A DNA stretch of 64,000 nt from Pedobacter punctiformis (lineage in GTDB: Bacteria; Bacteroidota; Bacteroidia; Sphingobacteriales; Sphingobacteriaceae), in assembly GCF_027213715.1 (NCBI RefSeq), contig NZ_JAPWGM010000004.1, positions 124,001-188,000 of the forward strand, read 5' to 3'. The translations under genes and the position numbers were made by a program. Of the stretch, positions 5,868 to 25,343 are shown piece by piece. How positions within the stretch are numbered: position 1 is the first letter of the stretch; each line of letters starts with the position of its first letter. The notes beneath the pieces were generated by a model. That model searched no databases. It had not been told where the DNA came from and worked only from the letters and a program-made list of their open reading frames with translations.

Positions 5868-5885
5868 AAAATACCCAGGTATTTT
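5868..5885. promoter_or_regulatory. Palindrome AAAATACC-ca-GGTATTTT
   Basis: Eight-base perfect arms with a 2-base spacer, about 300 bases upstream of the SusC start. It could be a dyad operator or a small RNA hairpin in the leader; a 2-base spacer favours a DNA site over an RNA stem-loop. Confidence 0.35.
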
Positions 5886-5912
5886 AATTTTTTAAGCAAG
5901 CTTAATAAAAAA

Positions 5913-5933
5913 TATACCCTTAACTAAGGTATA
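5913..5933. promoter_or_regulatory. Looser dyad TATACC-9-GGTATA
   Basis: Six-base arms separated by nine bases, 28 bases downstream of the tighter TACC/GGTA palindrome. A related CTACC-9-GGTAG dyad sits at 5720-5738. The repetition of this core in one leader is the reason for listing it. Confidence 0.25.
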
Positions 5934-6186
5934 GTTGAGCAAGAAAAGCAGGAGAATTGAAATGCCTTCACTCCCGGGTTTTTTAACAAACAAACAAAAA
6001 GCTTTTAAACTTATAAATAGTTATAAAAACAGACACTAACCTTTAAACCAAATTCTATGTTCAAAAAATTTACTTCTTTTTCTATGGCATTGGTGTGCCC
6101 AAAAATCTCAAACAGACATAATTGGCCCCGAAAGTTTTAACAGATCAATTATTCCTTATTAATAAAACTTAATTAAACTAATAAAA

Positions 6187-9100
6187 ATGGTTAAAATCAT
6201 TAAAGGTATTTTTTGTGCCTTGTTGTTATCTATTTTTGGTTTCTCAGTCGTTCAGGCTAAAACTCTTGTTGGGAAAGATTTTAAAATTAATCTTTATAAC
6301 AGGGTGTGTAAAGGAGGTGACCTGATAAAGGTAAAGAATCAAACACTTGCTATTGATACAAATAAGAAGCAAAAAACAGCAAAAGATTCTACATTAAAAG
6401 TTGCTGGCGAAAAAGATACTTTAGGCCGAAATATAAGGCTAAACAGGCTTTTTAAGGGTAATAAAGACTCATTATCTGTTGGAATATCCAGAGCGATACC
6501 AAATTTATCTTTACAGCAGATGCTTAAAGGTAATATTGCCGGATTATATGTTCAGGAAACCACCGGAGAACCCGGTACGGAACAAAGCATGATTATTCAG
6601 GGTACATCCTCCCCAATTTTTAATAAGAGAGATATTTATAACGTACAACCTGTTGTATATATTAATGGGATTCCTTTAGTTCAGGATAATCCCTTTGCTT
6701 ATGATGTTCAGAAATACGATTACAACAGAATCGGACCTGCAACCAATCTATTATCTTCCATAGATATAGATAACATAGCTTCGATTGAAGTTATAAAAGA
6801 TCCGGTTTCATTGGCCAAACTTGGTCCAAATGCCGCTAATGGAGCAATTTGGATTACCACCAGGGCTGCAAAGAGCGGAACAAGAGAAATTAGTGTTAAT
6901 TCTTACTTCGGGATGGTACAAGCCAGTAATGTAAGTACGGTTAATGGTGTATTTGAAAACAACTTCAGAAAGCCTTTTTATCAAAAATATGCTACCGCTG
7001 ACAACTATGCCAATTATGCTTCTTACTTAAAAGATTCTACCAACACCGATTACTTTGGGAAATCTAACTGGAATGATTCATATTATAAAACCAATCCGAC
7101 TTACTCCGTAGATTTAGGTATTTCCGGAGGTTCTGATCGTGCAAATTTTAGATTTTTTGGTTCAGGAACAAAGAGCGCAGGCAATGCCGATGCAACTTCT
7201 TTAACCCGTTATAATGCTTCGTTTGCTATTAATATGGCACCATTTGATTGGGTAACGGTTTCAAGTTTTATTAATGCATCGAGGTTGGACAGGGCTAGAA
7301 ACAGAAGTTTGAGAGATCGTTTTGCTGAGGTTAGGTATTTACCGGATCTTGTAAATCCACTTTCGCCAAATAAAGACAATTATCAAACTTTTTTAGATGA
7401 GTATGATAAAGTGGTTGATGATAACCGTAACAATCTGGTAAACGGATCGCTATCTCTAAATTTTAAATTAACACCGAGGTTAAATTTTGTTACCAGTTTA
7501 TTATTTGATTATAATGAAGGTATCCGTGATGCATTTTTTCCTTCTACTTTGATGGAGAAAGTAAATTATGTATCTAATTATTTTGGTTATAACCAGCGTT
7601 TTGGACTTAATAATGTATTGACTTATAAATATGATTTAAATAAGGATCATAAATTTCAATTTGGCTTAGGGCAAACCACTCAGGGCGATACCTATAAATA
7701 CAATTACGCCAGAGCTTATAACGGGCCTAATGATTTTATTAAAATAAATGTAGTTAGTGGAAACTCGAATGCAGGTTATGATAAAAATGGTAATATTATT
7801 TACTTAAATACTTTAGCAGAAAAGGCTTCTGGTTTTTATGTGTTCAGGTATACGGATAAAATGAAAAACGGTTTAGTGTCGTTTCATGCATCGGCTAAAT
7901 ATGAATATAAAGACTTATTAACTTTTGCAGGTATCATCAGAAGAGATGGATCGTCTAACGGGCAACCAGATAGCAGATGGATTACTACTCCTGCGGTTAG
8001 TGCTGAATGGAACCTTAAAAATCAATTCCTTAAAAACAACAATTTCTTCAATTCGTTAACTGCGGGTGTATCCTGGGGGCGAAGTGCTAAAATTTTTACA
8101 GATGACAGATTTGGTGCAGGCCCGCAATACCGGGTAGAGTATGGCTGGAATGAAGAACCTACTATTCCAACTTTTGGTGCTGCAATGGGGGTTTCAAGAC
8201 CTTATAATACAGGTTGGGTTGGCTACGGAATCACATTGCCTTACTCAGACAGATTTAACTTTACCCTTGCATCATCTTTATTTCGCGGAAGAATAGACGC
8301 TGCTGTTTCACTTTATAACAGAGATGATAAAAATCAGTTGTTAAACTTACCTGTTGCGGCCGAGAGTGGTTATGCAAGCATTTACAAAAATGGGATGTGG
8401 ATTAATAACAAAGGTGCAGATGTGCTGATTAGTGCTCAAGTTTTAACTAATGAAAATAAATTAAGCTGGTCTTCAACTTTAAACTTTGGCTTTAACAAAA
8501 ATACCCTTAAAGCTTTACCTGATAATTTAAATTCATTGGTTATCGGTGATAATAAATTAACCGTTGGCCACTCAGTAGGTTCGTATTGGCTTTACAGCAA
8601 TGCAGGTATTTATAATTCGGATGCTGAAGTTCCGGTGAATCCTGCAAACAATAAAAAACTTGCATTTAATGGTATTGCTTTAAAAGCAGGTGATCCGAAA
8701 TGGGTTGATTATAATGGCGATTATAATGTAACAGATGCGGATAAAGTTATGAAAGGAGATCGTTTACCTAAACTTACAGGAGGCTGGGGTAACACCTTTA
8801 ACTATGGTAATTTCACTTTAAATTTTAACTTCTTCTTTGCTCTGGGCCAAAAAGCAATCAACCAGTTTGATGCTTCGAGATATGATTTTGCAAACCGCGA
8901 AACGGCAAGTGATATTAACTCAATAAAAGAAATCACAACCTGGCAAACCAGTGATAATATTAAAACTTATCCGATATATAATACCTGGAGTAATGTTGTT
9001 CCGTATCGCGTAGATCAGGATTTATTTTTGGAAAATGCTTCTTATGTAAAATTAAGATCATTAACATTTGGTTATGATCTGTCAAAAGCACGTTTCCTTT

Positions 9101-9276
9101 CAAAATCAAAGCTTGGCTTTAGAAAAGCATACGTATACGTAACCGGAAGTAATTTATTTACAATCACCAATTTTTCAGGTACAGATCCGGAGTTAATCAA
9201 CTACAATGGTACTTATGATGGAACAAGTTTGCCTATAGCCAGAACCTTTACAGTAGGGTTTAAAGTTGATTTATAA
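6187..9276 (+). CDS. SusC/RagA family TonB-linked outer membrane transporter (first copy)
   Basis: 1029 residues with signal peptide (about 1-24, ending VVQAKT). A plug domain is recognisable at about 105-230 (LSLQQMLKGNIAGLYVQ, VVYINGIPL, IASIEVIKDP, GAIWITT), followed by a long β-barrel ending TFTVGFKVDL. The usual N-terminal carboxypeptidase-D-like domain (about 80 residues with a GxTDxxGxF motif) is missing; residues 25-100 are an unrelated Lys/Asn-rich linker. The terminal residue is Leu rather than the common Phe. It heads an operon with its SusD partner 24 bases downstream and should form the TonB-powered channel of the complex. Import of a large ligand is inferred from the family. Confidence 0.9.
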   Translation: MVKIIKGIFCALLLSIFGFSVVQAKTLVGKDFKINLYNRVCKGGDLIKVKNQTLAIDTNKKQKTAKDSTLKVAGEKDTLGRNIRLNRLFKGNKDSLSVGISRAIPNLSLQQMLKGNIAGLYVQETTGEPGTEQSMIIQGTSSPIFNKRDIYNVQPVVYINGIPLVQDNPFAYDVQKYDYNRIGPATNLLSSIDIDNIASIEVIKDPVSLAKLGPNAANGAIWITTRAAKSGTREISVNSYFGMVQASNVSTVNGVFENNFRKPFYQKYATADNYANYASYLKDSTNTDYFGKSNWNDSYYKTNPTYSVDLGISGGSDRANFRFFGSGTKSAGNADATSLTRYNASFAINMAPFDWVTVSSFINASRLDRARNRSLRDRFAEVRYLPDLVNPLSPNKDNYQTFLDEYDKVVDDNRNNLVNGSLSLNFKLTPRLNFVTSLLFDYNEGIRDAFFPSTLMEKVNYVSNYFGYNQRFGLNNVLTYKYDLNKDHKFQFGLGQTTQGDTYKYNYARAYNGPNDFIKINVVSGNSNAGYDKNGNIIYLNTLAEKASGFYVFRYTDKMKNGLVSFHASAKYEYKDLLTFAGIIRRDGSSNGQPDSRWITTPAVSAEWNLKNQFLKNNNFFNSLTAGVSWGRSAKIFTDDRFGAGPQYRVEYGWNEEPTIPTFGAAMGVSRPYNTGWVGYGITLPYSDRFNFTLASSLFRGRIDAAVSLYNRDDKNQLLNLPVAAESGYASIYKNGMWINNKGADVLISAQVLTNENKLSWSSTLNFGFNKNTLKALPDNLNSLVIGDNKLTVGHSVGSYWLYSNAGIYNSDAEVPVNPANNKKLAFNGIALKAGDPKWVDYNGDYNVTDADKVMKGDRLPKLTGGWGNTFNYGNFTLNFNFFFALGQKAINQFDASRYDFANRETASDINSIKEITTWQTSDNIKTYPIYNTWSNVVPYRVDQDLFLENASYVKLRSLTFGYDLSKARFLSKSKLGFRKAYVYVTGSNLFTITNFSGTDPELINYNGTYDGTSLPIARTFTVGFKVDL

Positions 9277-9300
9277 AATTAATTGATAGAAAAATATAAT

Positions 9301-10869
9301 ATGATATCATTATTAAATATGGGTGCTAAATTAAATAAGTTTTTAATAGCGCTATTATTAATTATTGTAGTTTCCGGTAACTATTCCTGTAAAAAAGTCA
9401 TAGATATTGAGTCTTCACGTTTATCGGACGAAACAACACAATGGACTAAACTGGAAGATGCGAAAGCCGGATTGATTGGTATTTATGCGTTAATGCGTAC
9501 TGCAATGGTAGCCGATAATACGCACTGGCTGATTGGAGATTTAAGACAGGGCGATTTTGCATCTACAAGCCGTCCCGATTTAAAATCGATTGTAGATGGT
9601 CAGTTAAATGCATCTTATCCACTTTTAACCAGGGTTACCAACTGGAGAAGATTTTACTCTGTGGTTAACGCGGCAAGTTTGTTTATTGAACGTTCAGGTG
9701 AAATTTTACCATTGGATAAACGCTATACAACGGTAAATCATGATGTAGATATTGCACAGGCAAGAGCTTTAAGGGCGTTTGCTTATTTTTATATGACTAG
9801 AATCTGGGGCGATGTTCCTTTATTAACCTCTTCTCACGATGGTGATTTTGAACAACACGCACGAACCAGCCAGGCTAAGGTTTTAGCATTTGCAACTTCC
9901 GAATTACTTTTGGCAGCTAAAGTTTTACCATTTCGTTATGGCGGTACAGATGCTCAGCTTCCGGGGCTTTATTATGGTGCTCCATGGCCTACCTGGAATG
10001 GTGTTTTATTTACCAAACTGGCAGCTTATGCAATTCTGGCACACATTTCTGCATGGCAAAGCAACTACTTTGATACAGAGGTTTATACTAAATTCATCGT
10101 TGATAATTACACCAAATTAAATGGTGACGGAAGTTTTGGTATTCGCTATATTGATATGGATGCCTTAACCGAAAATAATAATGGTTACAGTCCATTTGCA
10201 TTTAAAAGAGCTACGCAGGTTGTTGGTTTTGGTTTCGAATATGGTAATGGCGAGGCAACAGCCAACGGTCACCTGGAGCAATTAACCTTGGCCAGTCCGT
10301 TAATATCAAAGGCTACACCTGAAATTTATGTACCAAAAGACACTATCCGTAAAGTATTTACCGATCCTGGTGACCTTCGCTTTAGCATAGACCCACTTAC
10401 AAAGTTATACCGTACTAACTATTTCCTTAACTACAGTACTGAAAAACCAATGTTCAGTAAAATTAAGGTTGTTGCAGATGCCAGAACCAGTGGAGACTTT
10501 GCCTTATTTACTTCTGCCGTTTTATTTACCCGTTTAGAGGAATTAACCTTATTAAGAGCAGAGGCTTTGGCTGTGTTGGGACAGAGAAACGAGGCTATTG
10601 ATAATTTAAACCGTGCGACAAACCTTAGAGGAATTATTCCTTATGGCTCAACATCATCAAAAGACCTGATTGATGCCATTTTTGAGGAAAGACGCAGAGA
10701 GTTAATGGGAGAGGGCTGGAGATGGTTTGATCAGGTTAGGTATAACAAGATTAAGCGTAATAATGCTGCATTTAACACATTGATAGACAGAAATGGAATT
10801 TATTGGCCGGTATCTAAAGATGTAATTAATGCCAATCCAAGTGTTACACAAAATGGCTACTGGAACTAA
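9301..10869 (+). CDS. RagB/SusD family surface lipoprotein (first copy)
   Basis: SusD-like ligand-capturing lid protein, partner of the SusC just upstream. The lipoprotein signal ends in a lipobox (GNYSC) followed by KK. SusD hallmarks are the TPR-like helical N-terminal part with RALRAFAYFYMTRIWGDVPL and the C-terminal EERRRELMGEGWRWFDQVRY signature. I choose the ATG at 9301 (MISLLNMGAKLNK); an upstream TTG at 9283 and an ATG at 9319 are also in frame. The protein should be anchored in the outer leaflet and hold the ligand for the SusC barrel. Substrate is not evident from sequence. Confidence 0.9.
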   Translation: MISLLNMGAKLNKFLIALLLIIVVSGNYSCKKVIDIESSRLSDETTQWTKLEDAKAGLIGIYALMRTAMVADNTHWLIGDLRQGDFASTSRPDLKSIVDGQLNASYPLLTRVTNWRRFYSVVNAASLFIERSGEILPLDKRYTTVNHDVDIAQARALRAFAYFYMTRIWGDVPLLTSSHDGDFEQHARTSQAKVLAFATSELLLAAKVLPFRYGGTDAQLPGLYYGAPWPTWNGVLFTKLAAYAILAHISAWQSNYFDTEVYTKFIVDNYTKLNGDGSFGIRYIDMDALTENNNGYSPFAFKRATQVVGFGFEYGNGEATANGHLEQLTLASPLISKATPEIYVPKDTIRKVFTDPGDLRFSIDPLTKLYRTNYFLNYSTEKPMFSKIKVVADARTSGDFALFTSAVLFTRLEELTLLRAEALAVLGQRNEAIDNLNRATNLRGIIPYGSTSSKDLIDAIFEERRRELMGEGWRWFDQVRYNKIKRNNAAFNTLIDRNGIYWPVSKDVINANPSVTQNGYWN

Positions 10870-10906
10870 GTTTATAATGAATAATCAATTGATAATAGAA
10901 ATACAG

Positions 10907-11584
10907 ATGAAAAATAAAATAAATAAGCTTTTGTTTTCGCCTCTTGTAATGCTGTTTGTTTTTTGTTTGGGCATAACAGCCTGCAAAAAAGATTCGGCCT
11001 ACCATGATTATGAAAATACCATTAAAGAATTTGACGGTACAGCCTTAAAATACCTTCAGGATCAAAAAAATACTTACGATTCGATGTTATTTGTTTTAGA
11101 CAGAGTACCTGATTTAAAAGATTCTTTAGCAAATGATAAGCTTACCCTGTTTGCGGTAACTAATCAAAGTTTTCAGGTGGCGATAAAAAACTTAAACATT
11201 GAGCGTAAAGCACAAAATAAAACACCGATGTATTTAAAAGACGCTAATGTAGCACAGCTGGATACATTGCTTAGCCGGTATATGGTTAAAGGGATTCGCA
11301 GCACTGAAGATTATAAACCTTTTACGGATGGTGTAACCTTAAAAAGTATGAAATACAATTACCAAATGCATGTTCAATACAAAAAACTGGATGCGTCAGG
11401 TTTTGTTGAAGGCGGCCCGCAATCAATTATTTATAGCGATCCCAAGAATTCTATTTTTCAAAAATACTGGGAAAACGCAACGACTAATGCAGTAAATATT
11501 AAAACAAAAAATGCCATAATCAATGTTCTGGCACCTAGTCACGATTTTGGCTTTAATGAATTTGTAAAAAGAATTAATCAATAA
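10907..11584 (+). CDS. Fasciclin (FAS1) domain lipoprotein (first copy)
   Basis: About 225 residues from the ATG at 10907 (MKNKINKLLF); longer in-frame starts overlap the SusD gene and would put a hydrophilic leader before the signal peptide. Lipobox GITAC followed by KKD. The body has FAS1 features: TALKYLQ, a region around LTLFAVTNQSFQVAI (the FAPTDxAF-like H1 box), and the closing NAIINVLAPSHDFGF. FAS1 domains mediate adhesion and protein-protein contacts in many organisms. Its place directly after SusCD suggests an accessory surface-complex subunit. A second FAS1 lipoprotein follows the second SusCD pair in the same operon. Confidence 0.75.
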   Translation: MKNKINKLLFSPLVMLFVFCLGITACKKDSAYHDYENTIKEFDGTALKYLQDQKNTYDSMLFVLDRVPDLKDSLANDKLTLFAVTNQSFQVAIKNLNIERKAQNKTPMYLKDANVAQLDTLLSRYMVKGIRSTEDYKPFTDGVTLKSMKYNYQMHVQYKKLDASGFVEGGPQSIIYSDPKNSIFQKYWENATTNAVNIKTKNAIINVLAPSHDFGFNEFVKRINQ

Positions 11585-11595
11585 GGTTTAATAAA

Positions 11596-12624
11596 ATGGA
11601 TAATAAAAGATATTTATCATTATTTGGTGTATTGCTTTTTGGTTTTGCCTTCGCAATTACAGCCTGTAAAAAGAATTTGCCTGATGCCCGCCTTTCTTTG
11701 GGCTCCGATTCTCAGTTCACAACAACCGTTTATAAACCTGTATTGGGTAGAAATACTTTATTCTCGAATAATTTTAATGCAGCGAGTTCAAGCTTACCAC
11801 TTAGCTTTAAAATTATTAATATGCGCAGGTTTAACGGTGATCCTGCTCCCGAGCTGACCGAAAACTTCCCGGTTACTGTATGGAAGCAATCGTATTTGGG
11901 TGACGAAAAATCACTGGCAGAGATTGAAGCGAAGCGTACTACTGAAAACCACCCTCTTTTTGAAATAAGAGAACACTCAGGTCAGTTTTTAATGTGGGCA
12001 AAAGCAAAATCTGATTTTGTCAGGGCACAACCTGATTCGGGATATGTTTTCGATGTGGAAATGACCAACTCAGGTGGAAGAAGGTATTTCAAAAACTTTA
12101 AGCTTCAACCTTATAAAGAGCGTCCTTACGAGCTTTCGGCAGCTGATCCTATTACCGGACAAATTAGTTCTGGTTACATTTTTCCAGGCATTTTCAACAA
12201 CATACGGGGTGAGCGTACCAACAGGTATTTATCTCCTGTGGAAGTACAGGTTTTAACCAGAAAAGTAAATGATACAGGAAATTCTTTAACCTTTAAGTTT
12301 GTGGATAGTCTTTACAATCCGATTGATCCGAACAAATTTGCGGCTACGCAATGGCCAACAGTTGTACATGGCTTTGATATGGTTAAAACTAATGAGGCGG
12401 TTAGCTATAAAGTGGCCTATCCTGTTCCTTTAGCAGCTTACCCAACAATATATACTGATGGTAGCGGACAAGCGGCCAGAGCTGTATTTAGATATGACAG
12501 ACAAGGCTTTGGAAATGTAAAGGAATCGGCACAGCTGGGCCTCTATTTTCAGCTGTTCGAGAAAGGGGATTGGGAAATTACCTTCTGGTTTAGAACGGAG
12601 CGCCCCAAATTCACAAATGACTAA
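11596..12624 (+). CDS. Surface lipoprotein of unknown function (DUF5007-like)
   Basis: 342 residues with lipoprotein signal (lipobox AITAC, then KKN). The rest is β-rich and contains no catalytic motif I can identify. From size, N-terminal pattern (KKNLPDARLSLGSDSQF) and its place between FAS1 and SusC genes it resembles the DUF5007 family of Bacteroidota SusCD loci, but that name is from memory and is unconfirmed. It begins 12 bases after the FAS1 stop, so co-transcription is near certain. A ligand-binding or scaffold role on the cell surface is inference from context. Confidence 0.6.
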   Translation: MDNKRYLSLFGVLLFGFAFAITACKKNLPDARLSLGSDSQFTTTVYKPVLGRNTLFSNNFNAASSSLPLSFKIINMRRFNGDPAPELTENFPVTVWKQSYLGDEKSLAEIEAKRTTENHPLFEIREHSGQFLMWAKAKSDFVRAQPDSGYVFDVEMTNSGGRRYFKNFKLQPYKERPYELSAADPITGQISSGYIFPGIFNNIRGERTNRYLSPVEVQVLTRKVNDTGNSLTFKFVDSLYNPIDPNKFAATQWPTVVHGFDMVKTNEAVSYKVAYPVPLAAYPTIYTDGSGQAARAVFRYDRQGFGNVKESAQLGLYFQLFEKGDWEITFWFRTERPKFTND

Positions 12625-12661
12625 TTAATACATCTGTTTTAAGAAAATATAAGTATCTGAT

Positions 12662-15600
12662 ATGAGGTATCTTTACATAATAAGTTTTTTGTTCCTGCTG
12701 TTTTGTACAAACGAAAAATTAATGGCTCAACAAAAGAAAATAATAGTTAAAGGAACTGTTATTGATAAAGGAGACAAAAATGATGGAACACTGCCAAGCG
12801 TGAGTATTCTTTCAGGCGATCCTTTAAAACCCATTGGTATGACTGATGGCAATGGAAATTTCTCTGTAAGCGTAGATGAGAATGCAACATTGGTTTTTAA
12901 ATACATTGGCTACGTAACCCACAAAGTTGAGGTTAAGGGCAGAACAAAAATAACTATTTCCCTAAACCCTGATAATAACCAGTTAAAAGAGGTTTCAATT
13001 GCCGGATATGTATCCAAAACAAAAGAAACTTCGGTAGGATCAAGTATAATTATTTCGGGTAAAGAGTTGCAGGATGTTCCGGTTGCAAATATTACAGATT
13101 TACTTCAGGGTAAAGTTGCCGGTTTAAATATTCAGCAAAATACTGGTTCGCCGGGTATCAGGGGATCTATAGCCATCCGTGGACTTTCTAACCTGACCAT
13201 TTCCGGCTCTGGTAACGAAGCCTTTTTAACGCCAACAACGCCACTCTTTGTTGTGGATGGTATTCCGGTTGATGATAATTCAAGTTATCAATACGGTTTC
13301 CAGCAGGCTGGTCCCGGAATTAGCCCGATATCCTTAATTCCTCAGGAAGATATTGCGAATATGGAGGTTTTGAAAGATGCGTCAGCAACTTCGCTGTACG
13401 GTTCGAGAGGAGCTTACGGAGTAATTTTAATTACCACGAAAAGAGGAAATTCAAAAATTCCGGTAATCCGTTACAGCGGTAAGTTTTTCGTTAGTGCGGT
13501 GCCGAAACTTCGTTCAGTAATTGGTGGAAAGGGTGAAAGACTTCTTCGTATTGATCAAATTATGACCAGCGATTCCAGCTATTATCACGCTTTAGGTTTA
13601 GTAAACGGTACAGAATTTTTGTCAGATAGTTTAAATGCCTACTACAACAATTCAACCGACTGGCAATCTTATTTTTACAAAACGACCTATAATCAAACCC
13701 ATAACTTAGATATATCGGGTGGTGATCAGACATTTAACTATAAAGCTAATTTAGGATACTTTGATCAAAGCGGTATTCAGCAAAATACAGGTTTTAACCG
13801 CTACAACCTGAATATGAATATGCAGTACCAGCCCAATTCAAAATTTAAATTATACGCCGGAATAAACAATTCATTAGGCAAGCAGCAAAAGGGTAGTGGG
13901 AATGGTTTAATTAATAATGGTGTTGCTGAGGGCGGGGCATCATCGTCACTGCTTCCGGCTCCATCTCAGTTTACTTCTGTAAATTCGGTTTTAAGTGCCA
14001 TTCAAACTGATAACGATAATAAAACGGTTAATGTAAACAGTACGGTAGAATTGCAGTATGAGTTTGTTAAGGGATTAAGATTGACCTCAAATTTTAACTA
14101 TACTTATAATACAGCAACTGAAGATAATTTTTTACCAGCTGCTATTAATAATAATGTGCCCTCACTGTTTACTTACAACAGTGTGAAAAATACGGTGTAT
14201 AACAGGAATTTACTGGCATATGTATACAGCATTAAAGATAAAAGCGGTGAGGATGCTCATAATTTCAACGCCTACGTTTTTACGGAAATTAACAGTGCCA
14301 ACTATAAAGCTGATGCAATAAAAAGTAATAAGGGGGTAAATGACCACATCCGCGGCCCTATTATTGGAGTTGATAACTATGTTACTTCGCTCGGAGGTAC
14401 ATTAAATGATTTTTATCAGTCTAGATCTGTTGCCCTTGCCGGTAACTTCTCTTACAACTATAAACAAAAATATGTACTGGATCTTTCTTACCGTTTTGAT
14501 GGAAATTCGACCAACGGGCCAGATGCAGGTTATACTAAAAGTCCATCAGTTGGGGTAAGGTGGAACTTCAATAAAGAAGAGTTTTTATCAAAACTTAACT
14601 GGCTTGAATATGGATCGTTAAGGTTAAGTTACGGTAGTAATATTGTGCCAAACGGAACCATTTATGATGTTTATGGTAAATATGTCTCTGGTAATCTTTA
14701 TAACGGTAAGCCCACAGTAAATCTTGATACTGCCCGCTTACCCAACACAAATTTACAACCTACAAAAAATACAACTTTAAATGCGGGTTTTGATTTGGCC
14801 TTATTTAACAACAGAATCAGTTTAACTTTTGATACTTACTATAAACAAGTAGATAATATTTTCCGCACAAAAGACCTTTCTAATACAAACTCTTTTAAAA
14901 GCGTTACAACAAATGAAGCAAGTATGGTTAACTATGGTTACGAAGCCAATGTAACCGCCAGACCATTGCCGAGCAGCAGTAAAGTAAACTGGACAATATC
15001 TGCAAATATCGCCATTAACCACGATGTGTTAACGCATTTACCCGATGGTGTACGGCAATTTATCTATGTGGATGCAACAACAGGACAATCCATTTTATAC
15101 AGGGTTGGATTAAACTCGCTTTCGAACTTTATTTATAATACTAAAGGTGTTTACTCTACTATTGGCGATGTTCCGGTTGATCCTTTAACAGGTTTGAGGT
15201 ATAGAATTGGTGGAAATGGTGTTTTAAACTACTTTCAGGCAGGAGATCCGCGATTTACCGATTTAAACGGCGATTACGTTTTGGATAACCAGGATTTAGT
15301 GGTGGCAGGTAACTCACAGCCACAAATTACCGGTGGTATTTCAACTTTTATCCAATACAAAAGCTTTTCATTTAGTGCCCAAGGTTCTTTTACCTTGAAA
15401 AGAGATATTTTGAATAATGCCTTAGCTTCTCAATTCCAAATCTTTAATAATCCTACTGCTATTGATAAAAATGGAAACAGGATTTTACCTCAGGGATTGG
15501 TGCCTTTAAGTTTATATAACTATTGGCTGGCTTCAGGTGATAATGCTACCTATCCAAACCCTTATGATTTTACAAGAAGTAAAATTGTAGATCCATTCCG

Positions 15601-15859: not shown

Positions 15860-15876
15860 TTTTCAGAACTATAATT

Positions 15877-17370: not shown

Positions 17371-17387
17371 CCTGATTAACTAAAAAG

Positions 17388-18116
17388 ATGAAAATTATGT
17401 TTAAAATATTTATAAAAACCGCAGTTATGGTATTACTTGCTGCGGTGTTATTTGCATCATGTAAAAAGAACGATTACTATTACGATACGGGTGTACATGC
17501 AGCTGAATATAATGGTACCATTCTAAGTTATCTGAAATCAAAACCTGTTTATTTTGATACCCTTACAAAGGTGATTAATATAGCCGGTATGAACGATGTT
17601 TTTGAAAAAGAGAATGTTACCTTTTTTGCGCCAACAAGTTCAACCATCTATAAATCTCTTAACAGGTTAAATACTTACCTTAAATTAAATGGCAGGGATA
17701 CCGTTTCACAGCTTACGCAAATTAAGCCTTCTGTTTGGAAAGAAACATTGTCCATGTATGTTTTTAAAGGCACCAGCCGCTTAAAAGACTATCCGCAAAT
17801 AGATACCTTATCTTTATTGGCTTTCCCAGGTCAGGGTTATACTTCGTATCAGGGCAGAACAATGAATATTGGAGTTTTATACCGTGATGCCGGAGGTGTT
17901 AAATATGCAGGTTACAGACAGTTAATCCTGTCTTTTATTCCTGATTATGCCAACCCGCGGGTCGGTTTGGTAAATGTACCAATTGCCTCATCAGATATTG
18001 CTCCAACAAACGGTATCGTACACGTTTTGGTTCAAAACAAGCATAATTTTGGCTTTAATACCGATCGGTTTATCAATACTGCAGTATCAAGCGGAATATT
18101 ACCACCAACACCATAA
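17388..18116 (+). CDS. Fasciclin (FAS1) domain lipoprotein (second copy)
   Basis: 242 residues with lipoprotein signal (lipobox FASC, then KKND). FAS1-like features parallel the first copy: YNGTILSYLKSKPVYFDTL, the H1-like box ENVTFFAPTSSTIYKSL, and the closing NGIVHVLVQNKHNFGFN, which mirrors NVLAPSHDFGFN in the first. The two therefore share layout and probably ancestry while being quite divergent. An in-frame ATG at 17397 is an alternative start. It sits 17 bases after SusD and 17 before the next gene. An adhesive or scaffold role at the surface is inferred. Confidence 0.75.
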   Translation: MKIMFKIFIKTAVMVLLAAVLFASCKKNDYYYDTGVHAAEYNGTILSYLKSKPVYFDTLTKVINIAGMNDVFEKENVTFFAPTSSTIYKSLNRLNTYLKLNGRDTVSQLTQIKPSVWKETLSMYVFKGTSRLKDYPQIDTLSLLAFPGQGYTSYQGRTMNIGVLYRDAGGVKYAGYRQLILSFIPDYANPRVGLVNVPIASSDIAPTNGIVHVLVQNKHNFGFNTDRFINTAVSSGILPPTP

Positions 18117-18133
18117 TTTTTAAAATAAAGAAG

Positions 18134-19753
18134 ATGAGAATTATAAATCATAAAAATTTTGTAAGCCAAACAATGGTGTTAATGCTTTTCTTAACACTGG
18201 CTATATTTTCTTGTAAAAAGCAAGAGCTGATTGGAGAAGATCCTTATGCCGGAGGAAAGCAGCCGCTGGGTATAAAATTCTCGGCAGATGTTCCTGATCC
18301 GGAGATAGGTACGCAGGGTGGCGAGGTTAATGTAAATGTAAGAGGATTACTAAAATACAAGGACAAATTTAAATTTCTGATTAATGAGGTTGAAGCAACA
18401 GTATTGGCTTTAACGGACAGTACAATCAGAGTAAAAATACCAGATAATGCCAGTACCGGAGGCTTTTCTGTAATGCTTGATGGCCAAACCTTTTTTGGCC
18501 CGAACTTTACAATTGATGGAAAAGTAAGTCTGGATGGCTCCTTTTTAGCAGTCAACGGTTCTAATGGCAGTATATATGATATTTTAAAACTACCTACTTC
18601 TAATTACTTTCTGGGTGGTTCATTTACTGATTTTGACAATAAAGCAACCGCTAAAGTGCCAATTGGAGGTGTAGCGCAAATAACAGCACAGGGCGCCTAT
18701 GCAAGTACACTGAATTTTGGTAAAGGGGCTAATGGTGTGGTATACAGTGTTAACCGGTTACCTAATGGCCAATATATTATAGCCGGACTATTTGGCAATT
18801 TTAACAATAGAAAAAATATAAATAGCATTACCCGCTTAAATAGTGATGGTACATTAGATTCGACCATTATTCAGGTGATTAACCCAACTCCGTTAGAAAT
18901 CAGAAAAAATGTAGATACGGTACCAACTTTTAATGGTGGAGTGGATGGGGTAATCAGAAAAACCTTTGTTCAAAATAACATGATAACCATAGTTGGAACT
19001 TTTCAATACTACGCTAGATATTTCTACGAACGTTCTACTTATGATAACAAAGTATTGGATGCAACCAGAATGAGGCAGCTTGTTCGTGTTAAAATTGATG
19101 GAACGATGGATTCTACTTTCAATTTTGATCCTGCGGTTAGACAAAGCTATGCAGGAGGCAATGGTGCAATTAACGATGCATTTATGCAGCCGGATGGAAA
19201 AATTGTTATTGTAGGTAGTTTTACAACCTTTAACGGATCTCCGGCAAATCATATTGCACGGATCAATACCGATGGAACCTTAGATGCTAGTTTTAATGCA
19301 GGCGCAGGTACAAATGATGATATTACATCTATAACCTATAATTCGGTTACCCAAAAAATTATCATCTCCGGATTATTTAATAGTTATAATGGTACCTCCA
19401 GATCGGGTGTTGCCATGTTAAATGCTAATGGTTCAATAGATAATTCATTCTCATTCAGTAATTTATCAGGTGGCGTTCCAACGTTTGCCTCGCAACTGGA
19501 TAATGGGAAAATAATTGTTTCCGGCCAGTTTAATAAATATAATGACGTTGTCAGACAGGGTTTTATGGTGCTAAATGCTGATGGAAAGCTAGCATCGGGT
19601 TATAATAACTCAGGTGCTTTCCAGGGTCAGATTTACAGAATGGTTGAAACCACATCATCTTTAGGTAACCCTGCGGTGATTTTAACAGGTTTCATTAGTA
19701 AATTTGACAATAAGAAAGTTGGCAACATTGTTCGTGTAGAACTTAAGCCTTAA
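18134..19753 (+). CDS. Surface lipoprotein with IPT-like domain and delta-60 repeats (DUF5008-like)
   Basis: 539 residues, lipobox IFSC then KKQ. Residues about 45-125 look like an IPT/TIG β-sandwich (GTQGGEVNVNVRG ... IRVKIPDNASTGGFSVMLDG). From about 135 to the end there are delta-60-type repeats with a recognisable unit: RLNSDGTLDSTI, RVKIDGTMDSTF, RINTDGTLDASF, MLNANGSIDNSF. These suggest a β-propeller-like fold. The N-terminal stretch DPYAGGKQPLGIKF resembles what I remember of DUF5008 proteins in Bacteroidota SusCD loci; that label is tentative. A surface binding or scaffold protein is the likely role. Confidence 0.7.
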   Translation: MRIINHKNFVSQTMVLMLFLTLAIFSCKKQELIGEDPYAGGKQPLGIKFSADVPDPEIGTQGGEVNVNVRGLLKYKDKFKFLINEVEATVLALTDSTIRVKIPDNASTGGFSVMLDGQTFFGPNFTIDGKVSLDGSFLAVNGSNGSIYDILKLPTSNYFLGGSFTDFDNKATAKVPIGGVAQITAQGAYASTLNFGKGANGVVYSVNRLPNGQYIIAGLFGNFNNRKNINSITRLNSDGTLDSTIIQVINPTPLEIRKNVDTVPTFNGGVDGVIRKTFVQNNMITIVGTFQYYARYFYERSTYDNKVLDATRMRQLVRVKIDGTMDSTFNFDPAVRQSYAGGNGAINDAFMQPDGKIVIVGSFTTFNGSPANHIARINTDGTLDASFNAGAGTNDDITSITYNSVTQKIIISGLFNSYNGTSRSGVAMLNANGSIDNSFSFSNLSGGVPTFASQLDNGKIIVSGQFNKYNDVVRQGFMVLNADGKLASGYNNSGAFQGQIYRMVETTSSLGNPAVILTGFISKFDNKKVGNIVRVELKP

Positions 19754-19784
19754 CTATTTAAATGAATATTCATAACCACGAAAT

Positions 19785-21545
19785 ATGAAAAATCTAGAAA
19801 AAAACACAGCAACAAATGTCTTCCGGTCATTAACCGCGGCGGTTTGCCTGGCATTTGTGTTATTATTTGGATCGTCTTGTAATAAAGATTTTCCAAATAC
19901 CTTAAACACAAATTATAAAAACGATACGACAGGAATAAATAATAAAACCCGTAAGGTACTATACATTATTATGGATGGTGTTAGAGGCAAGGCTTTACGA
20001 GCTTTAAATCCTCCTGTTCTGGCTCAGATAGTTAAAAAATCTATTTATGCCTATGACGGATTAACGGATTATCAAACCTCAACCATGACAAATGCAACCG
20101 CGTGGTCTAATATGATTACCGGTGTAACAAGTGATAAACATAAGGTTACAACAGAAAACTTTTCAGGAAATCAGATCGCTTCTTTTCCCAGTTTGTTTAC
20201 ACGTTTTAGGCAAACAAATCCAAATTTGAGATCGGTATCCATTGCTGCATCTAAAATTTTTAATGATAATTTAGCTAAAGATGCAACAGTAACGCTTAAT
20301 TATGAAAATGATGATGCAAAAGTTAAAGATGGCGTAATAGAAGAATTCAAAAAAGATGATGCAGGTATTGTAGTTGCACAATTTCATAGCGCAGAGGTGG
20401 CTGGTGCAGCAAGCGGTTATACCGATGCTTCAACAAATTACATTAACGCAATAAAACAGCAGGATACTTATATAGGTGAAATTATGACAGCACTTCAAGG
20501 CCGGAAAACTTTTGCTTCAGAAGACTGGCTAGTGGTAATTGCTTCAAATAAAGGCGGTGTAATTCCTGCAATTCCGAACAATCCGGATAAAACCGTTTAT
20601 GCTGATGACACCCGTAATAACTTTATTATATTTTATAACCCGAGATTTGTATCTCAGTTTGTGCCTAAACCTGATTCTGATAAATTACCGTATAGTGGCG
20701 CAGCTCCGAATTTTACCGGTACAAACAGTGCATTTTCTTTTGCAAAATTACCAAATGCGACCATTGGAAATTTTGGAACCGGTGATTTTACCTTCCAATG
20801 TAAGATCAGGTATGATGGCCCCGCTAGTAATTACCCTTCATTTATTTCTAAAAGGGCAAGTTTTACCGCTGGAGTACCTGGTTGGGTTTTATTTTTAGAA
20901 GGAGATATCTTTCAGTTAAATATGAGCCAGGTTGGACAAGGAAATACACAGGTAAGCGGTGGAACAATCAGAGATGGTATATGGCACTCCATAGCTTTTA
21001 AAGTTTGGATGAATGGAAGCGTACGTACTGTAACCATGTATAAAGATGGTGTAAAAGGTCTGGATAAGGTGATAACCAATGTTGGTAATTTTGATTCGCC
21101 AGCTCCGCTGACTCTTGGAGGTAATTTTATTTCAGGAGAAGGGGGAACAATAGACCTTTTAATTAAAGAAGTGGCTATGTTTAATGTGGCTATTCCTGAT
21201 GCAGCAATTTTAGCCAATATGCGTAAAACAACTATTGATGCAACATTTCCAAACTATAATAACTTAGTGGGTTACTGGCCGGCAAATGAAGGTGGAGGAA
21301 GCACATTGGCAGACTTATCTGGTAAGGCTGGGAACTTTACAATGTCTTCAACCGCGAAATGGAAAACTTTTACAGATTTTTCACCAAACCTTGATCCAAC
21401 AGTAAGTGAAGCCACTTATATGGTTGTTCCTAATAATGTTGATATTCCTTTTCAGATTTATACCTGGATGGGGGTGATTATTCAACCTTCATGGCAGCTA
21501 AAAGGCAAATCATGGAAACCTAATTATACGGATGTTAGGATATAA
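19785..21545 (+). CDS. Alkaline-phosphatase-fold/LamG lipoprotein, metal site degenerate
   Basis: 586 residues; lipoprotein signal with lipobox GSSC then NKD. The N-terminal half (about 50-290) has the alkaline phosphatase/phosphodiesterase superfamily layout: KVLYIIMDGVRGKAL (first metal Asp), a TNATAWSNMITG stretch where the nucleophile would lie, and LVVIASNKGG where active members have T-DHGG. The second motif has Lys in place of the metal-binding His and Asn in place of Asp, so this copy is probably catalytically impaired. The C-terminal part (about 310-510) is a LamG/concanavalin-like domain (WHSIAFKVWMNG, GYWPANEGGG). Resembles DUF4983-type proteins (tentative). A second paralogue lies two genes downstream. 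Confidence 0.7.
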   Translation: MKNLEKNTATNVFRSLTAAVCLAFVLLFGSSCNKDFPNTLNTNYKNDTTGINNKTRKVLYIIMDGVRGKALRALNPPVLAQIVKKSIYAYDGLTDYQTSTMTNATAWSNMITGVTSDKHKVTTENFSGNQIASFPSLFTRFRQTNPNLRSVSIAASKIFNDNLAKDATVTLNYENDDAKVKDGVIEEFKKDDAGIVVAQFHSAEVAGAASGYTDASTNYINAIKQQDTYIGEIMTALQGRKTFASEDWLVVIASNKGGVIPAIPNNPDKTVYADDTRNNFIIFYNPRFVSQFVPKPDSDKLPYSGAAPNFTGTNSAFSFAKLPNATIGNFGTGDFTFQCKIRYDGPASNYPSFISKRASFTAGVPGWVLFLEGDIFQLNMSQVGQGNTQVSGGTIRDGIWHSIAFKVWMNGSVRTVTMYKDGVKGLDKVITNVGNFDSPAPLTLGGNFISGEGGTIDLLIKEVAMFNVAIPDAAILANMRKTTIDATFPNYNNLVGYWPANEGGGSTLADLSGKAGNFTMSSTAKWKTFTDFSPNLDPTVSEATYMVVPNNVDIPFQIYTWMGVIIQPSWQLKGKSWKPNYTDVRI

Positions 21546-21584
21546 TAAACAAATTAATACTTAAAGGCCTATTATTTCTTAAAT

Positions 21585-23537
21585 ATGAAACGTAACAAAT
21601 TTTTACTCCAAATAACATTCCTGATTTTACTGCTCAGCACGGCTGCCTGTAAAAAATATGGATATGAAGTTGAAGATGGTTATACTGATGGTTCCAAAAC
21701 GCCAAATACTTCCTCTTCAATTGATACCAACATGTCTGTAGTAGACAGGACAATGTATGCTAAAGCGCGTATTTTTCCCGGTTTGGTAGACAACAGCGAA
21801 CCTCGTGTAAAGGATCAGAAATTTACACTTGATCTGAATTTTTCAGCTCAGAATGCGAGTAACCTGCGTATTCAGGTAGCGCCTGAACCACAATTTAGTA
21901 CGGGTTATTATGCGGCCCCGGGTGAGCTGATTAAAATTATTGTACCCGATGGAATTAATGGTTTAAGCATGCAAATTGGTGGTCATACTGATAATTTAAC
22001 CGGTAAAGTTCCATTACTTAGAGATCCGATTATTTATAGTGTAAAACAACTATATCCGGGTGTTAATTATGTGCGTAATTTATATGGCGGTACCATTTAC
22101 ATAAGGGCGGCATTTGCTTTCCCAAAACCGGTTGAGTTCACTATTTCTGGTGCGGTTGTTTCTCCTGATTTTGTATTGGGAGTTACCCAGGATGCTGCAT
22201 GGGTAGCGCAGGTTAAGGCATCTAATGTGCCATGGCTAGAGATGCGTGCCAAAAGAGTTGTGTTTTTGATTCCAAGAGATTTTGTAATCAGAAAATTTAC
22301 TTCCAGTGAACCACTAACTAATCCAACTGCAGTAATGACAGAGTGGAATAATAAGTTTGATTTGGATTATAATGCCTGGATGGGACTTTCGGATAATGCT
22401 CCGGATGTAAAAGACAGAAGTCCGCAAGGTCCATGGAGAGGCGTTTTAGATATTCAGTTGACCGCCGGTTACGGACATAGCGGTTTCCCTTTTGTTGGTC
22501 AAATGGACGATGAATGGTTTAACAGTTTTACCAGTTTAAAACAACTTTTAACAGGCACCAACTGGGGTACTTACCATGAATTCGGTCACAATTGTCAGCA
22601 ACCACTTGTATGGAGCTGGAGCACTTTGGGTGAAACGACAAATAACCTGTTCTCATTTAAAGTGGCTAAAAGAAATGGTGTTGCTTTTAATATTTTACAT
22701 GGAGTAAATCACGATTATGTGACTGCTGCACTGGCATTCGCGGCAAGTACACCTGCGGCTGGCGTAACCAAAAATTTTGACACTGATCCATTATTCGTGG
22801 ATGTAAATGAAGGCCCTTTCAGAAAAATCAATCCTTTTATACAGTTATTTGAAAAGTATGGGTACGATATGATGACTTACTTTTATACCAGTGCAAGACA
22901 TGCATCCCGATTATCATTTAATGATATTGATAAACATGATTTTACTTATGAAAGAGCATCTGAATATGCCCAAACAGATTTAGCTGCTTTTTTTGAAGCA
23001 TGGGGTATCTTAATAAGTACACAATCTCAGGCTAAAATTTCGGCAAAATATCCTCCTTTAAAAGTTAAGCTGTGGACGTATAATATATTTACTAAAGCCG
23101 GTGGTACAGCAGCTATAGTACCTACAATGACAGCAAGTTCTGAAGAAACAAATGGTGAAGGAGCAGTTAATGGCAGGGCTGCAACCTTACTTGATGGCAA
23201 TACGGCAACATACTGGCACTCTGCATGGCAAACCGCTCCAATTGGTGCATTTCCTTACACTTTAACTTATAATTTAGGCTATTCACAAACTTTAAGAGGC
23301 TTGTACTTTACACCGAGGGCAAGTGCAGGACAAAGACCAAAAAATGTTGATATATTAAGTAGTGCAGATAACGTAACTTTTACGGCAGTTGCATCTACTC
23401 AAATACCAAACGCGGCAACGCAGTATAACTTTATTTTCCCTGCACCGGTAAAAGCAAAATATTATAGAATAGTGATTAAAGATTCCTGGAATACTGGAAC
23501 AAATGCTTCATTATCTGAAGTAGGTGCAATTCAATAA
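21585..23537 (+). CDS. M60 family (enhancin/peptidase M60-like) metallopeptidase lipoprotein
   Basis: 650 residues with lipobox TAAC then KKY. The zinc-peptidase motif HEFGH is at residues 331-335 with a plausible third ligand Glu350 (H-X14-E), fitting the gluzincin pattern of M60/PF13402. Characterised family members, such as Bacteroides BT4244, act on mucin-type O-glycoproteins. N-terminal β domain (about 70-220, with RDPIIYSVKQLYPGVNYVRNLYGGTIYI) precedes the catalytic part. The C-terminal ~150 residues look like an F5/8-type C (discoidin) carbohydrate-binding domain (TASSEETNGEGAVNGRA, LDGNTATYWHSAW). Catalytic residues look intact. It is the only clear hydrolase with an intact active site in the operon, which points to glycoprotein substrates. 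Confidence 0.88.
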   Translation: MKRNKFLLQITFLILLLSTAACKKYGYEVEDGYTDGSKTPNTSSSIDTNMSVVDRTMYAKARIFPGLVDNSEPRVKDQKFTLDLNFSAQNASNLRIQVAPEPQFSTGYYAAPGELIKIIVPDGINGLSMQIGGHTDNLTGKVPLLRDPIIYSVKQLYPGVNYVRNLYGGTIYIRAAFAFPKPVEFTISGAVVSPDFVLGVTQDAAWVAQVKASNVPWLEMRAKRVVFLIPRDFVIRKFTSSEPLTNPTAVMTEWNNKFDLDYNAWMGLSDNAPDVKDRSPQGPWRGVLDIQLTAGYGHSGFPFVGQMDDEWFNSFTSLKQLLTGTNWGTYHEFGHNCQQPLVWSWSTLGETTNNLFSFKVAKRNGVAFNILHGVNHDYVTAALAFAASTPAAGVTKNFDTDPLFVDVNEGPFRKINPFIQLFEKYGYDMMTYFYTSARHASRLSFNDIDKHDFTYERASEYAQTDLAAFFEAWGILISTQSQAKISAKYPPLKVKLWTYNIFTKAGGTAAIVPTMTASSEETNGEGAVNGRAATLLDGNTATYWHSAWQTAPIGAFPYTLTYNLGYSQTLRGLYFTPRASAGQRPKNVDILSSADNVTFTAVASTQIPNAATQYNFIFPAPVKAKYYRIVIKDSWNTGTNASLSEVGAIQ

Positions 23538-23564
23538 TGGTTAACAATTAATTAAGAATTAAAA

Positions 23565-25259
23565 ATGAACAACATAAGCAAAAACATCAAAGTATTATCC
23601 TTTGCAATACTTTGCGTTGGATTAACCATTGTTGGTTGTAAAAAATATGATAATCCACCACCCGTTTTCGAAGAACTTGACAATAGTGACAGGGTGATCC
23701 AAAGAAAAGTTCTGGTGATTAGCATTGATGGGGTGACGGGGTCGGAATTGAATACCATTGCTCCGCCGATAATTACAGATTTAGCAAAAACGGGGAAATA
23801 CACCTATAATGTATTGCGTGGTGCAGTAACCACCGATGCAAGTTCATGGGTATCTATGCTTACCGGAACAAGTTACAGTAAACATCAGATTAAAGATGAT
23901 GTTACGTTTCGTCGCCCGCCTGCTGATGATGAACATGGTGCAGTGGTTTATTATCGTAATGTACTGGATTATGTAATGCAATATAAAAGCATAAAGACAG
24001 CCTTTGTTACACCTTGGTCTCAGCTTAGAGGTTATATGAAACAGGCCGATTATGCTCCGAATGTTTCAACCGATATTGCTGTAAAAGATTCGACAATTAA
24101 TTTACTTAATACAAGTAACAGCTTAGGAGCAGTTATCGTTAATTTTAAAGATGTGCAAACAGCAGGCTTAGCTGGTAGTTTTACGGCATCTAATGCAGGC
24201 TACAAAGCAGCAATTTTAAAATCTGATGAATATGTCGGTAATATTTTAACAGCATTAAAAGCGAGAAAAAATTATGCAGCTGAAGACTGGCTGGTAATTG
24301 TAACCACTAACCATGGGGGTAGCGAAGCAGATTCAAAACCTGGTTTTATAGTGCTTTCGAATAAAAATTTTAAAGGACAGGAAGTCAAAAAATCCGGTTT
24401 TAATACTGTTCTATTTAATAATACGAGTATTAATGCTTCAGTTCCGAATGATAACGGTTTATACGATTCGGGTTCAAGTAAAGATTTTACCGTTCAAATG
24501 CAGGTAAAGTTCAACTCGCTTACTTCGTATCCAGGCTTCTTATCCAAAGGATCAAATTTAGATTTATCAAAAATGACCGGGTGGTTATTTATGGAGACCG
24601 GAAGTAATTGGGCAGCTGTTTTGGGTGGAACTGGAAATGGAGGTACTGGAAAAACTCAGATTAACGGGGGCGCTATCGGTGATTTGCAATGGCACACGTT
24701 AACTATGACAGTAAAAACCGTTAATGCTACTACCAGAACAGTGAGTACCTATACTGATGGGAATTTAAACGCAACAGCTAATATTTCAAACACCAAAAGT
24801 TTGGCTACTACCGAAAAACTAACATTGGGATATAAAAATGTTGATAACGGAGGTGGTGCTTTAAATTTCCACGGAGCAGACCTGATTTATTTTAATACAG
24901 CCTTAGATGCTGCAACCATTAAAGCAAACATTGCCTTAAAAGATATAACTAAACACCCTAATTATGCTAATGTTACGGGTTACTGGCCAATTAATGAAGG
25001 TGGAGAAGGCTTGGCTACAAATGCAGCACCTGGAGGTTATGATATGTTTTTAAATGGTGGTTTTACCTGGAAAGGATTGGGTATTGATGTGCCTGCTTCG
25101 GTAACACCTGATGCAAATGCTACCGGTAAATCTATTATTGTAACTCCGGCAACTATTACAGCAGCAGCAATGTATTGGCTGAAAATTCCAATTTTGCCTG
25201 AATTTGGAATTGATGGAAATCCGGTTCTAAATCAATTTGAAGTAGAATTTTTAAAATAA
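23565..25259 (+). CDS. Alkaline-phosphatase-fold/LamG lipoprotein, second paralogue
   Basis: 564 residues; lipobox IVGC then KKY. Superfamily landmarks: KVLVISIDGVTGSEL (first metal Asp), TTDASSWVSMLTG (nucleophile region), and LVIVTTNHGGSEAD, which keeps the metal-binding His-Gly-Gly of the DHGG motif but has Asn for Asp. The C-terminal half is LamG-like (DFTVQMQVKFNSL, WHTLTMTVK, GYWPINEGGEG), ending with a conserved tail. It is a clear paralogue of the 586-residue protein upstream and retains more of the active site. A surface phosphodiesterase or phosphatase activity is possible but the nucleophile cannot be assigned with confidence. Last gene of the operon, followed by a strong terminator. 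Confidence 0.72.
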   Translation: MNNISKNIKVLSFAILCVGLTIVGCKKYDNPPPVFEELDNSDRVIQRKVLVISIDGVTGSELNTIAPPIITDLAKTGKYTYNVLRGAVTTDASSWVSMLTGTSYSKHQIKDDVTFRRPPADDEHGAVVYYRNVLDYVMQYKSIKTAFVTPWSQLRGYMKQADYAPNVSTDIAVKDSTINLLNTSNSLGAVIVNFKDVQTAGLAGSFTASNAGYKAAILKSDEYVGNILTALKARKNYAAEDWLVIVTTNHGGSEADSKPGFIVLSNKNFKGQEVKKSGFNTVLFNNTSINASVPNDNGLYDSGSSKDFTVQMQVKFNSLTSYPGFLSKGSNLDLSKMTGWLFMETGSNWAAVLGGTGNGGTGKTQINGGAIGDLQWHTLTMTVKTVNATTRTVSTYTDGNLNATANISNTKSLATTEKLTLGYKNVDNGGGALNFHGADLIYFNTALDAATIKANIALKDITKHPNYANVTGYWPINEGGEGLATNAAPGGYDMFLNGGFTWKGLGIDVPASVTPDANATGKSIIVTPATITAAAMYWLKIPILPEFGIDGNPVLNQFEVEFLK

Positions 25260-25315: not shown

Positions 25316-25343
25316 AAAAAGGATGCTCACGGGCATCCTTTTT
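25316..25343 (+). terminator. Rho-independent terminator of the SusCD/M60 operon
   Basis: Perfect 11-base stem (AAAAAGGATGC / GCATCCTTTTT) with a six-base loop and a T-run inside the 3' arm, 57 bases after the last operon stop. Marks the end of the 19 kb transcript. Confidence 0.9.

Follow-up and report, generated by a model that had tools for sequence, protein, structure and literature searches.

An eleven-gene Sus-like operon of Pedobacter punctiformis with an M60 peptidase, a very probable relative of the arabinogalactan locus of Bacteroides thetaiotaomicron

In Bacteroides thetaiotaomicron the genes BT0262-90 have been assigned to arabinogalactan, and deletion of the hybrid two-component system (HTCS) still allows growth on it at 78.9% of wild type (PMC3243724). 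BT0268 is the susC gene of polysaccharide utilization locus (PUL) 5, which is driven by arabinogalactan via the HTCS BT0267 (PMC6874557, PMC5061871). BT0269-75 are listed as SusD, hypothetical, DUF5007, SusD, and DUF5124 proteins, and BT0277-79 as a carbohydrate-binding protein, an alkaline phosphatase family protein, and a hypothetical protein (PMC10434189). Here, we describe an operon of eleven genes at positions 6187-25259 of a 64,000-nucleotide stretch of DNA from Pedobacter punctiformis (contig NZ_JAPWGM010000004.1, positions 124,001 to 188,000), which in its full length is called the window in the following. The operon appears to be a Pedobacter copy of a Bacteroidota-wide family of Sus-like systems that includes BT0262-BT0290. 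It may import an O-glycoprotein, probably one resembling arabinogalactan-proteins, whose backbone would be cut by an M60 peptidase. Taken as a whole, we give this reading about an even chance.

The connection to PUL5 is made by gene order. The Bacteroides copies of the operon (loci L204-L211) have the same order of the eleven families as the window, and this is also the annotated order of B. thetaiotaomicron BT0269-79. It is very likely, in our view, that the core of the window operon is homologous to BT0268-78 and represents a Sus-like capture core. An earlier note on this DNA had described the gene combination as not belonging to any pathway that it could name; the same-order genes BT0268-BT0278, however, form the transporter core of the arabinogalactan-induced PUL5, and this type of operon is thus already known in B. 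thetaiotaomicron by induction. The earlier note had further held that its proposal of glycoprotein capture would fall if homologous loci were induced by, and needed for, a simple polysaccharide. Induction by a plant glycan has been shown, but the need for the locus is weak, as the 78.9% growth indicates.

Conservation was assessed in 60 same-genus stretches of twenty kilobases around DUF5007 genes and in 80 loci from named genomes. DUF5007 is present in 54 of 148 sampled relatives; a phylum-wide draw (5/395) was too thin to give its distribution. All eleven genes are found uninterrupted and in the same order in 41 of the 60 same-genus stretches, so that the conserved synteny that the earlier note had suggested to look for does exist. 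The first nine genes are found in 56 of these stretches and are uninterrupted in 70 of the 80 named-genome loci, which span Pedobacter, Mucilaginibacter, Sphingobacterium, Niabella, Chitinophaga, Flavisolibacter, Pinibacter, Arachidicoccus, Sunxiuqinia, Paraprevotella, Bacteroides, and a Dysgonomonadaceae metagenome-assembled genome (MAG). Thus, the Sphingobacteriaceae, Chitinophagaceae, and Bacteroidales share the gene order, far beyond chance. In the Bacteroidales the order is unchanged although protein identities drop to about 24-46%, and selection therefore holds the gene set together.

The eleven open reading frames (ORFs) lie on the plus strand where the earlier note had placed them. Their families were assigned by Pfam and NCBIfam searches, and the features are as follows (AP denotes alkaline phosphatase).

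6187..9276, plus strand: SusC1, TonB-dependent transporter of unit 1 (TIGR04056, 400 bits; Plug domain)
9283..10869, plus strand: SusD1 surface lipoprotein (SusD_RagB, E 7e-16; 26% identity to SusD2)
10904..11584, plus strand: FAS1a lipoprotein, gene 3 (the ORF opens at 10829, 10904 being the likelier start; homologous to FAS1b)
11596..12624, plus strand: DUF5007 lipoprotein, predicted to be beta-rich, probable binding protein (PF16398, E 9e-82)
12662..15859, plus strand: SusC2, transporter of unit 2 (TIGR04056, 651 bits; 26% identity to SusC1)
15877..17370, plus strand: SusD2 surface lipoprotein (SusD_RagB, E 9e-27)
17388..18116, plus strand: FAS1b (fasciclin) lipoprotein, gene 7 (PF02469, E 8e-6, over the cut-off)
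18134..19753, plus strand: DUF5008 and delta-60/DUF5122 beta-propeller lipoprotein, gene 8 (PF17164, E 3e-38; PF16400, E 7e-20)
19785..21545, plus strand: AP1, gene 9, AP-fold lipoprotein with LamG-like insert and C-terminal DUF4983, predicted to be catalytically dead (PF16356, E 2e-14)
21585..23537, plus strand: M60 (gluzincin) metallopeptidase lipoprotein, gene 10, with C-terminal F5/8 type C domain (CBM32-like) (PF13402, E 2e-35)
23565..25259, plus strand: AP2, gene 11, second AP-fold/LamG lipoprotein, predicted to be inactive or strongly altered (PF01663, E 1e-8; PF13385, E 2e-7)
25316..25343, plus strand: intrinsic terminator closing the operon (12-bp stem, T run, -14.9 kcal/mol)

With FAS1a starting at 10904, the intergenic gaps are, in order, 6, 34, 11, 37, 17, 17, 17, 31, 39, and 27 bases, in agreement with the earlier claim of gaps under 40 bases. 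The single strong terminator was also found again, as a stem with a T run, and was not returned by a consensus terminator scanner. Genes 1-8 consist of the series SusC-SusD-FAS1-lipoprotein repeated twice, with DUF5007 closing unit 1 and the DUF5008-propeller protein closing unit 2, and in both of the SusCD pairs named before, the SusC and SusD genes are adjacent (TIGR04056, SusD_RagB). The tail behind the two units comprises an AP-fold, an M60, and another AP-fold lipoprotein. A lipobox-like Cys, in most cases with KK behind it, is present in all nine proteins other than the SusCs.

The searches matched none of the eleven proteins to glycosidase, lyase, or sulfatase families, as had been stated, and a linked carbohydrate-active enzyme was found neither within the eleven genes nor among the searched neighbours. 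No HTCS adjoins the operon in the window. It is a Sus-like uptake operon and not a complete PUL in itself. The searched flanking genes are housekeeping and transport genes and unrelated M28, TspO, and patatin genes. Genes for M28 peptidases are located on the minus strand at 3785-5134, divergent from the operon, and at 52940-54487. The divergent one was considered as an operon member and rejected, because the upstream gene differs among the relatives examined. A scan for sigma-70 promoters performed no better than on shuffled sequences, and two TAnnTTTG motifs within 5135-6186 are unproven and distant from the operon start. A Flavo-1 small RNA (RF01705) scores above the gathering threshold at 59166-59231 of the window.

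The M60 protein (M60-like_N, Peptidase_M60, and F5/8 type C by Pfam) contains HEFGH at residues 331-335 and Glu350, and thus the intact HEXXH motif together with the downstream Glu zinc ligand that the earlier note had reported. Judged by these residues it is very likely active. The full motif is present in 41 of the 42 operon M60s of the genus Pedobacter (window included). Among the named genomes outside Pedobacter, the copies of Sphingobacterium and most of those of Mucilaginibacter and of the Chitinophagaceae retain it. Degenerate M60s were found in all seven Bacteroidales copies, namely in Bacteroides (three loci), Paraprevotella (two), Sunxiuqinia, and the Dysgonomonadaceae, as well as in Mucilaginibacter SMC90, Pedobacter L031, and some Niabella. 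The M60s of the gut Bacteroidales appear to have lost their zinc site and may only bind.

On a tree of SusD1, DUF5007, and SusD2 from 96 loci (built with a quick method, without bootstrap, and with some long branches) the type of tail changes three times, the minimum possible being two. Type 1 has the intact M60; it includes the window, whose clade comprises 40 active copies. Type 1 operons whose M60 has no HEXXH form two clades, one of nine loci (all Bacteroidales, Mucilaginibacter SMC90, and Pedobacter L031) and one of two loci (a Niabella and a Sphingobacteriales MAG). In type 2, the place of the M60 and AP2 is taken by a BT_3987-like/PA14 or CBM6 lipoprotein together with a PKD and F5/8C lipoprotein, behind which a glutaminase-A-like protein is often encoded. 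The type-2 loci (L071-L085, L088, L089, L157, L159, L166, and L168) have an unchanged nine-gene core. One Pedobacter genome, G071, contains five DUF5007 loci that are full-length and belong to different clades (L031, L054, L055, L057, and C1:5983849), four of which read as full operons and one of which has a degenerate M60 with a GH35 gene behind it (GH, glycoside hydrolase). That the operon is built around an M60, as the earlier note had put it, is therefore doubtful, the M60 being degenerate in all Bacteroidales copies read and absent from the type-2 clade.

Alternatively, the operons could take up only a polysaccharide, type II arabinogalactan or one like it, with the M60 as a binding protein whose catalysis is irrelevant and which is decaying lineage by lineage. 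The degenerate copies and the missing M60 of type 2 fit this explanation, as does the response of the B. thetaiotaomicron PUL5 to larch arabinogalactan (PMC6874557, PMC5061871, PMC3243724). However, HEXXH, the third-ligand Glu, and a Trp and an Asn of the sugar pocket are nearly invariant in dozens of active copies from three families that share 40-60% identity, which argues for selection for catalysis, and among the 96 loci of the tree loss is placed at no more than two points. We consider pure polysaccharide uptake to be quite unlikely.

The AP-fold proteins, too, seem to have lost catalysis. Families were confirmed by Pfam for both of the AP-fold/LamG lipoproteins named by the earlier note (DUF4983/Phosphodiest for gene 9, Phosphodiest and Laminin_G_3 for gene 11), and the fold was confirmed structurally for gene 9 only. 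Its AlphaFold2 model (predicted local distance difference test, pLDDT, 88) matches ENPP enzymes and the Sphingomonas alkaline phosphatase (SPAP) in VIA-align with Z 26-27.5, the value for SPAP being 27.5 with 2.8 A over 264 residues. The LamG-like domain (residues about 300-475) sits as an insert within the AP fold, and in the model DUF4983 seems to form the C-terminus of this fold rather than a domain of its own. When the motif positions are matched by eye to those of ENPP, the DHG motif reads N-K-G, and neither D nor H occurs at those positions in any of 30 homologues. The His of the GH motif is missing in all 30, and the nucleophile position is N in 21 of them. The metal ligands are changed from Asp to Asn, His to Lys, and His to Ala. 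In gene 11 the DHG motif reads NHG, with N-H-G or similar in the homologues, and at least one metal ligand is lost. From these residues, gene 9 is predicted with good confidence to be non-catalytic, and gene 11 somewhat more likely than otherwise. Because metal ligands have been lost, both are most simply explained as probably non-catalytic binding proteins, with less certainty for gene 11. A match of gene 11 to a xylanase carbohydrate-binding module (E 0.008) was judged to be due to chance.

Gene 3 did not match any Pfam family, Fasciclin included. Its profile aligns with that of gene 7, which itself matches Fasciclin, at an hhalign probability of 99.9% (E 1.6e-34), and the two are thus homologous. 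On this homology gene 3 is read as FAS1-type, which gives two FAS1-type lipoproteins, as proposed before. Two further lipoproteins had been called β-rich. This stands as a prediction for the DUF5007 protein, and gene 8 is corrected to an IPT/TIG-like protein with a delta-60 propeller. Neither the DUF5007 nor the propeller protein matched sequences in the PDB. The DUF5007 model has a pLDDT of 89.5; its Foldseek matches are generic immunoglobulin-like folds (TM <=0.31) and were not taken as evidence of kinship. Locus L090 contains a lone SusC-SusD-FAS1-DUF5007-like unit (5355-12021, minus strand) with, by eye, lookalikes of an extracytoplasmic function sigma factor and anti-sigma factor upstream and a GH130-like gene and a sugar transporter downstream; the FAS1-SusCD unit thus also serves other glycans. 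In other organisms, FAS1 and LamG domains take part in adhesion, from which it could be argued that the operon serves surface adhesion or biofilm formation with FAS1 adhesion domains and lectins and is not a nutrient system. The two SusCD importers make this very improbable, as do the glycan sensors of the HTCS type and the neighbouring genes of sugar catabolism that relatives have.

Being free of glycosidases, which the earlier note had regarded as a defining property, is a trait of the window copy and a few others and not of the system, given that glycosidases adjoin the core in most relatives checked. Five Pedobacter loci have GH2, GH27, and a second, different M60 downstream of the core. 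Siderophore-synthesis-like genes (L171:11797-19073) and a peptide-exporter ATP-binding-cassette-like cassette (L173:4024-12234), both recognized by eye, are located beside or between the operon and these GH2-GH27-M60 genes. GH35 and GH95 are beside the core at L187, GH35 at L177 and L199, and a galactokinase at L199; GH35 and galactokinase accompany the core in Mucilaginibacter, and GH35 in Pedobacter G071. In the HTCS clade L178-L181 the core is flanked by GH29, GH88, and DUF2264, and at L189 and L036 GH84 is found beside it. Upstream of the Bacteroides copies lies a Reg_prop hybrid two-component sensor, with GH43 nearby and GH35 downstream. The window genome encodes one GH35 and three GH43 genes unlinked to the operon.

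The variety of these neighbours (GH29, GH88, and DUF2264 in the HTCS clade, GH2 and GH27, glutaminase-A-like in type 2) raises another explanation. The core could be a general device for capturing large glycans whose substrate is set by tails and neighbours, and the M60-active operons could serve some other plant or algal glycoconjugate such as extensin, fucosylated or rhamnosylated glycans, or pectin side chains. The three tail types on a single conserved nine-gene core, the lone unit of L090 with its other neighbours, and the five loci of different clades in one genome would be in line with this. The one substrate with experimental backing in this family, however, is arabinogalactan, and we regard this explanation as unlikely.

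The active M60s might as well act as canonical O-GalNAc (N-acetylgalactosamine) glycopeptidases on mucin-type or other animal or fungal O-glycoproteins, taken up whole or as glycopeptides. The intact zinc site and the CBM32-like domain would suit this, and the solved relatives nearest in sequence include the mucinase AM0627, albeit with low similarity (phmmer E 6e-7). AM0627, BT4244, ZmpB, and others bind the GalNAc at the site of cleavage with a Trp, an Asn (a Gln in IMPa), an Arg, and an aromatic residue (PMC9325726). The operon M60s keep the Trp and the Asn, and the position of the pocket Tyr is unsure from the alignment. In 40 of 41 operon M60s, however, an Arg is lacking at the expected place and up to two residues to either side, whereas AM0627 and six further M60s encoded by neighbouring Pedobacter genes have it. 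An alignment column (MAFFT) that placed an Asp at the position of the pocket Arg for other Pedobacter M60s was discarded, since a direct check located an Arg one residue away. The missing Arg points to a different glycan specificity without proving it. GH29, GH95, and GH84 at some active-M60 loci would also fit mucin-type substrates, as would the five loci that have a second, different M60 with the Arg in place. Against this, the gut version lives in mucin, yet its M60 is dead and its response is to plant arabinogalactan. Such a substrate therefore seems improbable to us, though the retained pocket residues speak for it.

Returning to the arabinogalactan-protein reading, we infer the binding roles, the localization, and the substrate as follows. 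The FAS1, DUF5007, propeller, and dead AP-fold/LamG lipoproteins would form a binding layer at the surface around the two SusCD importers. This layer would hold a large branched O-glycosylated molecule, likeliest an arabinogalactan-protein or another plant O-glycoprotein of a related kind. Guided by its CBM32-like domain, the M60 would cut the protein backbone beside the glycan and so shrink glycopeptides or long glycans enough for the two SusC channels. The sugars would be removed later by glycosidases that are encoded elsewhere in the window genome and beside the operon in many relatives. Arabinogalactan-proteins are the likeliest class because the sole experimental evidence in the family points to them and because galactan-type enzymes recur by the core; by this analogy, the substrate could well be arabinogalactan-protein-like, which we propose tentatively. 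Of the glycoprotein capture at the surface that had been suggested before, an operon for capture and uptake of glycoconjugates with an intact M60 is supported, and the nature of the substrate is the conjectural part.

Several points weigh against this reading. The M60 enzymes characterized so far require O-GalNAc, which, to our knowledge, plant arabinogalactan-proteins lack. The GH29, GH95, GH84, and GH88 neighbours of active-M60 loci fit fucosylated or GlcNAc-bearing glycans too. The orthology to BT0268-BT0278 follows from the published annotation order and from congeners and not from a direct alignment with B. thetaiotaomicron. The evidence for arabinogalactan stems from the clade with dead M60s, the window belongs to a separate, well-supported clade with active M60s, and the transfer of the substrate is therefore uncertain. 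In the window itself, neither a regulator nor a glycosidase is linked to the operon. A more far-reaching version, to which we give a rather low probability, would be that the active-M60 clade are O-glycopeptidases cleaving plant hydroxyproline-O-glycosylated proteins (arabinogalactan-proteins) and not O-GalNAc mucins, coupled to two SusCD importers, and that the gut lineages turned the enzyme into a non-catalytic glycan binder.

The operon family bears on how bacteria handle the protein part of abundant plant O-glycoproteins, and we know of no peptidase dedicated to plant arabinogalactan-proteins. It also offers a natural experiment, in which one conserved surface machine carries an active peptidase (soil), a dead one (gut), or none (type 2), and it suggests likely binding-protein roles for DUF5007, DUF5008, DUF4983, and PUL-linked FAS1 proteins. 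In the literature searched, these proteins are nearly absent, with a single paper for DUF5007, DUF5008, and DUF4983 together, and the AP pseudo-enzymes, the split into active, dead, and absent M60s, and the pocket change were not found.

Compared with known systems, the operon shares the SusCD importers and surface lipoproteins in one operon with the Sus-like systems and glycan utilisomes of Bacteroidota, and differs from them in having two complete units, FAS1 proteins, and no surface glycanase in the operon. The AP fold of gene 9 is that of the type I phosphodiesterase/alkaline phosphatase superfamily (ENPP/SPAP), from which it departs by the N at the nucleophile position, the three altered metal ligands, and the LamG domain inserted before the DUF4983 end. 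With the M60 O-glycopeptidases (AM0627, BT4244, ZmpB/C, IMPa) the operon M60 has the zinc site, the Trp and Asn, and a CBM32-like domain in common, and differs by the absence of the conserved pocket Arg from 40 of 41 members. The BT4244 locus of B. thetaiotaomicron combines an M60 with SusCD as the window does, a likeness by description only; its substrate is given as mucin O-glycoprotein and GalNAc (PMC11992087). The order of PUL5 (BT0262-BT0290), SusC-SusD-hypothetical-DUF5007-SusC-SusD-hypothetical-propeller-AP-M60-like-AP, is, judging by the published annotation and the Bacteroides copies, that of the window. The gut copies combine a degenerate M60 with an adjacent HTCS and with GH43/GH35; the window operon, in its separate clade, has the intact M60 and stands without a linked regulator or glycosidase.

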